DNA from: Clostridia bacterium
GTDB lineage: Bacteria > Bacillota > Clostridia > Oscillospirales > Acutalibacteraceae
Direction of reading: 5' to 3'
Length of the DNA: 53,819 nt
Assembly: GCA_017537245.1 (NCBI GenBank)
Contig: JAFYLD010000003.1
Span: forward strand, 1-53,819
Positions 21,215 to 22,374 of this stretch are shown piece after piece; the stretch's first letter is position 1; the number at the start of each line of letters is the position of its first letter. The position numbers and the translations under genes are program-made. Below the pieces are notes generated by a model. It searched no databases. It saw only the letters and a list, made by a program, of their open reading frames with translations, and was not told the origin of the DNA.

Positions 21215-21255
21215 GGCATATTTCTCCTTATAATAATTATAATTATACATAATGC

Positions 21256-21284
21256 ATTATAGCACGCGTGCACATTAAATGCAA
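21256..21284 (-). promoter_or_regulatory. lepA promoter
   Basis: On the minus strand TTGCAT (21284-21279) and a perfect TATAAT (21261-21256) are 17 bases apart, with a predicted start near 21249, about 35 bases before the TTG start of lepA. Because lepA has its own promoter downstream of a terminator, the RNA encoded upstream is an independent unit. Confidence 0.75.
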
Positions 21285-21331
21285 GAATAATAATATTAAT
21301 ATTATATAAACAAATTCAAAATTCCGAACGC

Positions 21332-21364
21332 AAAAAAGCCTTCGCAACGTAAAGCTGCGAAGGC
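21332..21364 (-). terminator. terminator of the four-repeat RNA
   Basis: On the minus strand a perfect 9-bp stem GCCTTCGCA/TGCGAAGGC with a 9-base loop is followed by six Ts. It closes the transcript starting near 21638. Confidence 0.9.
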
Positions 21365-21638
21365 ATAATTTAATATTAAGTTCTAACTATACATCGGACT
21401 CACCGTCTGTAAATTTTAGTTCCGAATAAAACTAATTAAACTTTCGGACTCATTCCTTTACACAAATTTTGTTTTGAGTTAAAAACTAACTAATCCTTTG
21501 GACTCAATCCTTTGTTAATTTATAGTTGTCAGGTTTACTTATCACCTGTACATTGGACTCACGCCTTTCAAATTATTTTTTTGAAATTTCTGGTGGAGTG
21601 TCCCTCATAGCGTTTTACCGCTCCTTTCTTTACTTTCC
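21332..21638 (-). ncRNA. unassigned ~307-nt RNA with four tandem TGAGTCC repeats
   Basis: A minus-strand transcription unit with consensus promoter and strong terminator but no sizeable reading frame. Its body contains four imperfect direct repeats. Each has an AAATT box, then about 8-12 variable bases, then a TGAGTCC core (plus-strand GGACTCA at 21396, 21446, 21500 and 21555; period 50, 54 and 55 bases), then a short AT-rich arm that often folds back (for example CAGGT...ACCTG after the first core and TCCGAA...TTCGGA around the third). The 5' part has AAAGGAG, a small AGCG/CGCT hairpin and an ATG with an 11-codon frame, then a TTTCAAA/TTTGAAA hairpin. I do not recognise an RNA family. It is not a lepA leader, because lepA has its own promoter past the terminator. 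Confidence 0.7.
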
Positions 21639-21644
21639 GTCTTT

Positions 21645-21673
21645 ATTATACTGAATTATGCACAACTTGTCAA
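21645..21673 (-). promoter_or_regulatory. perfect sigma-A promoter of the four-repeat RNA
   Basis: On the minus strand TTGACA (21673-21668) and TATAAT (21650-21645) are exactly 17 bases apart. Both hexamers match the consensus, which suggests strong constitutive transcription. Confidence 0.9.
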
Positions 21674-21763
21674 CAAAAACTGAATAACTTTTATACATTT
21701 TGTATAAAGAACTAAAAACTTTACCACCTTTTTGGAAGATTTCACAAAAGAAAAACAATTCTA

Positions 21764-22138: not shown

Positions 22139-22149
22139 TTAAATTGCTA

Positions 22150-22344
22150 CGTTCTGCCTTGTGCGTGTATCCTGGCTTATATAACCCTACAAGATAACAA
22201 AAAGGGATTTCTGCTCAGGCGGTGGGCTTGCAGACCTCCCGCGGCGGTGCCGAGTTCGGAAGAAGGGAGCGCGAAACCGTTTGGCGAAAACCCACCTGAA
22301 CTTAAGATCAGGTTATCATCAAGCCGTTACGGCAAGGCGGAACG
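22150..22344 (+). ncRNA. ssrS: probable 6S RNA
   Basis: A ~195-nt region with no reading frame whose ends form a 12-bp closing stem (CGTTCTGCCTTG with CAAGGCGGAACG, one G-T pair). Inside are an interrupted stem (TGGCTT/AAGCCG), a long apical arm (GGTGGG/CCCACC), and on the 3' side an alternative hairpin CCTGA/TCAGG with an 8-base loop. This long rod with a central opening and a 3' bubble hairpin fits 6S RNA, which sequesters RNA polymerase sigma-A holoenzyme. The SRP RNA GGAA-loop signature, RNase P core and tmRNA ends are all absent. The family call rests on fold and length only. Confidence 0.55.
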
Positions 22345-22374
22345 AAAGAATTTAATAAATTGGCAAAAATTTTC

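Follow-up and report, generated by a model that had tools for sequence, protein, structure and literature searches.

Architecture of the locus

The element described here, which belongs to gut Clostridia, occupies positions 21332-21673 on the minus strand of the window, that is, of the whole stretch of 53,819 nucleotides that was analysed, and consists of a promoter and a terminator which bracket four TGAGTCC repeats. A DUF1292 gene, assigned by Pfam, lies divergently upstream, and lepA is located downstream. The features are listed in the direction of transcription, and the energies given for them refer to predicted pairing with the 3' tail of the 16S rRNA.

21675..21692, minus strand: AT-rich near-palindrome directly upstream of the -35 box; genus consensus AAAAGTTATTAACTTTT (40-row alignment and nine closest relatives)
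21645..21673, minus strand: promoter, TTGACA-17-TATAAT, 12/12 box positions perfect
21618..21628, minus strand: Shine-Dalgarno sequence (SD) of the leader ORF, GAAAGGAGCGG, -13.2 kcal/mol
21573..21608, minus strand: leader micro-ORF MRDTPPEISKK, a Pro-Pro micro-ORF common to the arrays of the genus
21542..21569, minus strand: unit 1, GAAAGG C GTGAGTCC A followed by ATG TAC AGG TGA (MYR*, or MSPMYR* if GTG starts), -15.8 kcal/mol
21490..21513, minus strand: unit 2, predicted docking site AAAGGATTGAGTCC, with AAG in place of ATG and a TTG frame MSPKD*, -11.1 kcal/mol
21436..21459, minus strand: unit 3, predicted docking site AAAGGAATGAGTCC, with AAA in place of ATG, -11.0 kcal/mol
21383..21406, minus strand: unit 4, ACGGTGAGTCCG followed by ATG TAT AGT TAG (MYS* or MSPMYS*), -12.3 kcal/mol
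21555-21561, 21500-21506, 21446-21452 and 21396-21402, all minus strand: the TGAGTCC copies
21332..21364, minus strand: intrinsic terminator, stem 21364..21338 of 11 pairs, 7 of them G-C, then TTTTTT

Several parts of the first-pass annotation of this DNA are borne out by these features. The promoter, described there as perfect, matches at all 12 box positions (21673..21645, minus strand), and the four repeats with periods of 50, 54 and 55 bases are found as claimed, all on the minus strand and spaced 55, 54 and 50 bases apart in the order of transcription. Across the whole window and both strands TGAGTCC occurs five times, against a shuffle mean of 1.75, and four of these five copies sit inside 166 bases of one strand. 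The promoter spacer is 17 in 49/49 genus arrays (14-19 was permitted), and the near-palindrome upstream of the -35 box is a candidate UP element or operator. In the window's own genome, one match to the element is found at E 0.001 or better. The terminator carries the six Ts that were reported, whereas its stem has 11 pairs and not the 9 bp given earlier.

Other parts of that annotation do not hold. An AAATT box, ascribed to each unit, precedes unit 2 in 4/9 and unit 3 in 4/9 close relatives (window included; alignment read by eye). The space between promoter and terminator, said to contain no gene, carries micro-ORFs, and the leader ORF and its SD (21573-21628), which make a fifth ribosome-binding element, had been overlooked. 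The fold-back arms proposed for the repeats are not recovered either, as the transcript body without the terminator folds about like its shuffles (z -0.82; 40/200 shuffles at least as good), while the transcript including the terminator reaches z -3.09. A structured non-coding RNA was rejected on the basis of this shuffle-like body.

Conservation in the genus and genomic neighbours

The promoter and the repeats are conserved in relatives. When 60 genomes, the own genome included, were searched with the DNA sequence, close species gave long matches (best 8.9e-102), and several other genomes matched the first 130 bases of the element. The pattern GTGRNHCCRATGTAC occurs in 56/70 genus genomes, with 0 for the reversed control. 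A sequence-only model of the promoter, the leader ORF and the first unit, built from 40 arrays, finds a single strong locus, at E 1.3e-10 or below, in 60/70 genus genomes, the next best match being at 9.7e-6; since the 40 arrays are also the training data, the independent part of this result comprises about 20 genomes. At E 0.01 the tally rises to 69/70 genomes, weak matches counted, and the ten genus genomes that lack a strong match have listed completeness values of 64-93%.

The genes that follow the arrays vary. Downstream of the array lies lepA in at least 4/49 loci and other first ORFs elsewhere, many of them on the opposite strand, and a DUF1292 gene is located upstream in at least 24/49 loci; these neighbour counts are lower bounds, flanks being 1.5 kb or less in many loci. 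The proposal that the element is an autonomous unit which does not lead into lepA is thereby supported.

Repeat units as extended Shine-Dalgarno sequences with start-stop micro-ORFs

The TGAGTCC core is part of a longer sequence, AAAGG-nn-TGA-n-TCC, which constitutes an extended SD. It has the potential to pair along nearly the entire 3' tail of the 16S rRNA, here taken to be GGAUCACCUCCUUUCU. Neither this tail sequence in 70 genus genomes nor another 16S motif in 41 gave a match, and the register of ordinary SDs in 292 ORFs does fit GAAAGGAGGTGA. The recurrence of the TGAGTCC core is explained by a pairing that, through TGA and TCC, reaches past the usual SD into GGAUCA and leaves one base unpaired. 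In 50 genus units of the ATG type this free base is G in 28, T in 21 and A in one, and the flanking A of TGA is kept in 49/50 and the T of TCC in 47/50, in a set whose pattern had TG and CC fixed. A middle base that varies in this way is better accounted for by pairing with one base left free than by a conserved Ser.

A scan of the window transcript for such pairing reveals five sites at -10 kcal/mol or stronger, which are the leader and the four units and nothing else. In 150 dinucleotide shuffles the mean is 1.07 sites and the maximum 4, so none has five; at -9 kcal/mol the transcript contains seven sites against a shuffle maximum of 4. A single shuffle site can reach -19.0 kcal/mol and be as good as or better than the real ones. 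The median is -15.8 kcal/mol for the 79 genus units (range -19.6 to -7.0) and -16.0 kcal/mol for the 53 order-wide 5' units, compared with a median of -9.1 and a 10th percentile of -13.6 kcal/mol for ordinary starts, taken as the best ATG of 487 ORFs of at least 150 codons, some of which may not be genes. Because the genus and order units were found by motif patterns, this comparison leans towards pairing, a bias that is absent from the window scan. With -11.0 to -12.3 kcal/mol, units 2-4 of the window pair more strongly than the median ordinary start but less strongly than the best tenth of such starts.

The 292 ORFs were picked because an SD-like 5-mer stands 4-12 bases ahead of a start. In them, AAAGG is most frequent 10-11 bases and GGTGA 4-5 bases ahead of the start, and the ordinary SD pieces fit one register, namely GAAAGGAGGTGA, 4-5 bases and the start. 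In unit 1, ATG is located 10 bases and GTG one base past AAAGG; the unit ATG thus falls at the ordinary start place in this register and GTG does not. Initiation at the GTG of GTGAGTCC is therefore disfavoured by its distance from the SD, and is conceivable chiefly for units without ATG. The sequence TGANWCCR directly before a start was found in 0/292 of these SD-selected ORFs.

A start codon at normal SD distance is present in the leader and in units 1 and 4, and no ATG is found there in units 2 and 3; in unit 3, an ATG one base past AAAGG would give MSPKV*. Units of the ATG type, in the genus and the order sets alike, read AAAG-nn-GTGA-n-TCC-R-ATG. An in-frame stop with at most three codons between follows in 43/50 genus units, compared with 11 and 4 for the other two frames, and in 72/87 order units, compared with 7 and 8; some loci of the window's genus are part of the order set. 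The patterns that defined these units fixed ATG and, for most order loci, also GTGAGTCC and TAC, and left the stop free. A start at SD distance with an early in-frame stop, the arrangement of a minigene, is hence found in the sequence. A single codon separates ATG and stop in 33/50 genus ATG-type units, and the amino acid encoded by codon 2 is not conserved.

The 34 genus units without ATG carry AAG (17), AAA (16) or AAT (1) at that place, and early stops in them are not confined to one frame (27, 21 and 0 of 34 in the three frames). These units keep codon-like changes, such as CCA/CCG, AAA/AAG and in the stop, which would likewise be compatible with translation starting at an NTG close to the SD. 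Neighbouring modules are at least 45 bases apart in 105/105 spacings, a distance that may suit the footprint of neighbouring 30S subunits.

The leader micro-ORF

A micro-ORF of the type M(K/R)..(T)PP....K, starting with ATG, GTG or TTG, is present in 41/49 genus arrays and absent as a Pro-Pro ORF from the remaining 8; in one of the 41 (locus L098) it follows the first unit. Length differences between arrays are codon-sized. In the aligned set the leader stop lies a few bases 5' of the next SD, and in six arrays (L010, L016, L049, L100, L104 and L105) the leader frame stays open across the SD and runs on into unit 1, so that one fused peptide ending in VIPMK or VSPMK results. By eye, CCRCCN is present in 38/40 aligned arrays, which were not selected for Pro-Pro, and its last base is free. 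In 37 distinct leader cores, the first proline codon is CCA in 30 and CCG in 7, and the second is CCT in 18, CCG in 9, CCA in 8 and CCC in 2.

Outside Pro-Pro, purifying selection on the leader was not found, with pN/pS at 1.25 compared with 1.20 for column-permuted sequences (127/200 permutations at or below the observed value). This set comprised 41 ORFs, of which 39 were long enough and 37 distinct, and the Pro-Pro codons were excluded from it as the selection criterion. The frame and Pro-Pro are therefore kept, and the remaining residues are not. Many relatives also contain a 9-codon ORF of the MIVRKxxIK type (pN/pS 0.71, n=29).

Relatives across Oscillospirales

Similar RNAs that begin with the 5' unit recur across Oscillospirales. 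A scan of a genome collection of 84,980 species with GAAAGN{0,5}GTGAGTCCRATGTAC returned 72 stretches, whose titles name Oscillospiraceae/Ruminococcaceae or just Clostridia, Bacillota or Firmicutes, with the exception of Bryobacter, Streptomyces and one 'uncultured bacterium'; the Bryobacter and Streptomyces matches have neither a -10 box nor an early stop. The distance from GTG to the stop is at most six codons in 58/73 order hits. A -10 box with five or more matches is located 4-24 bases upstream in 41/73, and a hexamer resembling a -10 box ends 8-23 bases upstream of the unit GTG in 59/73. The hexamer-to-GTG distance is odd in 52 of these 59 hits (L129-L200), which may reflect relatedness. 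Further units within 250 bases are found in 5/73 hits; most relatives outside the genus carry one 5' unit, and tandem docking is therefore not the common state.

A second, 3' micro-ORF of the M(M)LD[NI]K type is present in 39/73 order hits (L129-L200). Its stop lies within a 9-mer that pairs at most 90 bases downstream in 39/39 cases, one mismatch allowed, and our reading of the loci suggests that this stem is a terminator. Synonymous forms of MLDIK/MLDNK occur, with 12 codon forms in 42 matches to the five-codon pattern.

Within the same family, another genus has two pattern matches 48 bases apart, and one of its loci (L065) appears, by reading, to have a third unit. Longer arrays occur in another family (L109-L111 and L113-L115); they combine several start-stop units with ORFs such as MCLDEPIGQIRMVRAQGSIR and MILRKAYIYIKK. 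In an order tally, 67/394 genomes matched, compared with 14/394 for the reversed-pattern control, chance matches included, and 10 of 18 such loci that were inspected look, by reading, like matches inside ordinary genes. Genome G155 contains four copies of a GAAAGGTAAGGTGAGTCCRATGTACGT leader (L118-L121), each followed by an ORF start with no early stop; the ORFs that follow look like secreted or lipoprotein genes.

A proposed tandem ribosome-docking RNA and its alternatives

We propose, with a probability of roughly 0.47, that the element is an autonomous RNA of tandem ribosome-docking modules whose function would be to dock or load ribosomes. The reading builds on the computed promoter and terminator, the conservation, the complementarity to the assumed tail, the frame-specific stops and the changing downstream genes. 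The extended SD of each module would pair with nearly the whole 16S 3' tail. In many modules a start at normal distance would be followed by a stop after one or two further codons, and in others, where AAG or AAA replaces the start, the docking site would be left. A Pro-Pro leader micro-ORF would usually precede the first module. Ribosomes would in this manner be captured at several places, at least 45 bases apart, and the products would be a leader peptide of 11-12 residues, peptides of two or three residues, or nothing. Their occupancy would protect the RNA and hold or titrate initiating ribosomes, in a way comparable to the single STAB-SD that protects the cry3A message. From the sequence we infer the abundance of the RNA, its occupancy by 30S or 70S particles and occupancy as its purpose; the candidates for that purpose are RNA stability or protection, titration, sensing of Pro-Pro stalling and peptide supply. 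That Oscillospirales possess a whole class of RNAs whose job is to hold ribosomes, through modules in tandem that cover the whole 16S tail by pairing and allow each ribosome one or a few peptide bonds, in a form of ribosome parking or titration with one-module and 3'-ORF versions in other families, is a speculative extension that we regard as doubtful.

The alternative that comes next, an unlikely one, is that the micropeptides themselves are the product of a polycistronic gene for tiny peptides (leader T-P-P, SPKV/SPMYR and, in relatives, MIVR...IK), which signal or bind a protein. The coding frames look real, with Pro-Pro written with varied third bases in the 37 leader cores, with the pN/pS of 0.71 of the 9-codon ORF class and with the synonymous forms of the order-wide 3' ORF. 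However, the leader residues outside Pro-Pro evolve freely, and the units often have one codon between ATG and stop and a variable amino acid at codon 2.

Slightly less probable still is a trans-acting base-pairing or protein-sponge RNA with TGAGTCC as the binding core, incidental ORFs and a partner other than the ribosome. It would account for the repeated core in variable surroundings, for autonomous transcription and for the same letters at transcript 5' ends across the order (letters that the search pattern had fixed), but it leaves unexplained where the start lies, how far it is from the SD and why stops follow in frame, and the window transcript has no fold beyond that of shuffles. The binding-element RNA of the earlier annotation is thus retained in part: the repeated binding element stands, and its non-coding nature does not, as the core is an extended SD, often followed by a start and an in-frame stop, and the leader is codon-structured. 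If the RNA is a sponge, it would be more likely to bind the 16S tail of 30S subunits than a regulatory protein.

An improbable third possibility is a translation sensor, in which stalling at Pro-Pro (reflecting EF-P supply) or at the start-stop ORFs alters access to the docking sites or the fate of the RNA. The frequency of the Pro-Pro ORF, its stop shortly before the next SD, the six arrays that read in frame into unit 1 and the position of the order-wide 3' ORF stop in a predicted stem speak in its favor, whereas the lack of a fixed downstream gene as output and the arrays from which the Pro-Pro ORF is missing speak against it.

Regulated genes often have a leader peptide with a stalling motif in front of them, and the array could by analogy be a leader or attenuator of lepA or another downstream gene; this is very improbable and, for lepA, was rejected on the neighbour counts (lepA near 4/49 arrays), as the fixed, controlled downstream gene of a leader-peptide attenuator is not found in these loci, many first downstream ORFs lie on the other strand, a terminator intervenes and lepA is preceded by a promoter-like sequence of its own. 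This sequence, TTGCAT-17-TATAAT-like, lies just upstream of lepA on the minus strand (window about 21255-21290), and TTGCAA-TATAAT is present in L003 and L094. Unselected repeats in a relic region, to which the freely evolving leader residues would correspond, are hardly credible given the strong single locus in most genus genomes and the 5' motif across the order.

Known systems and RNA families

The STAB-SD of cry3A in Bacillus thuringiensis is an SD-like site near the 5' end which, as described in PMC4113751, can bind the 16S 3' end without initiating, blocks RNase J1 and stabilizes the RNA. It is the nearest tested precedent for the docking RNA proposed here. In both cases, an SD-like complement of the 16S tail is located near the RNA 5' end (here computed with the assumed tail). 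Units 2 and 3 have no ATG at the usual start place; units 1 and 4 and the leader have start codons. In contrast to the STAB-SD described there, a single element in the leader of a protein gene, four modules and a leader ORF here make up the whole RNA, and some of the modules have a start and a stop.

The lambda bar minigenes are very short ORFs which affect translation. In the axe-txe minigene, a very short ORF is likewise reported to have a regulatory effect on translation (PMC8708949). The very short ORF is the shared trait; the minigenes described sit inside other operons or regions, whereas those of the element are arrayed and no gene of the transcript follows.

Sponge RNAs such as CsrB and RsmZ are autonomous and carry many short binding motifs, with GGA shown in conserved hairpin loops. 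The element resembles them as an autonomous RNA with many copies of a short motif, but in the window it has no hairpins beyond shuffles, and its motif complements the 16S tail and is coupled to frames. GGA is present in the leader SD and in units 2 and 3, while the cores of units 1 and 4 lack it. SgrS, RNAIII and SR1 are dual-function small RNAs with a small ORF, a trait shared with the element, which differs in having several tandem ORFs of about 3-12 codons. The polycistronic micropeptide gene tarsal-less/polished rice of insects also combines one RNA with repeated tiny ORFs of a common motif; it is, however, eukaryotic and encodes functional peptides, whereas most peptide residues vary here.

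We know of no bacterial RNA of this build. A literature search, with most subscription papers and supplementary candidate lists outside its reach, found no paper tied to this RNA, and searching for the core letters gave fungus, sheep and yeast titles only. Candidate structured RNAs in human microbiomes are the subject of PMC8040213. If ribosomes load, this would be a bacterial RNA devoted to ribosome capture via repeated start-stop ORFs, and transcripts of ORFs of about 3-12 codons that are conserved across an order could escape both gene finders and structure-based RNA searches.

In agreement with the earlier annotation, to which no family of this pattern was known, Rfam 15 yields no gathering-level match over the element in the window, in 19 loci and in 18 of the 72 order-wide loci, and at E up to 10 the window segment gives only seven matches, all at E 1.2 or worse. 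Known RNAs are found nearby. A 6S RNA (RF00013, 61.4 bits) is located at window positions 22148-22347 on the plus strand, beside DUF1292 and tRNA-Gln, and 6S RNA is also present in loci L006 and L014. A Gut-1 RNA (RF01706) is found at 2186-2262 on the minus strand of L129, on a contig that also bears the 5' unit.
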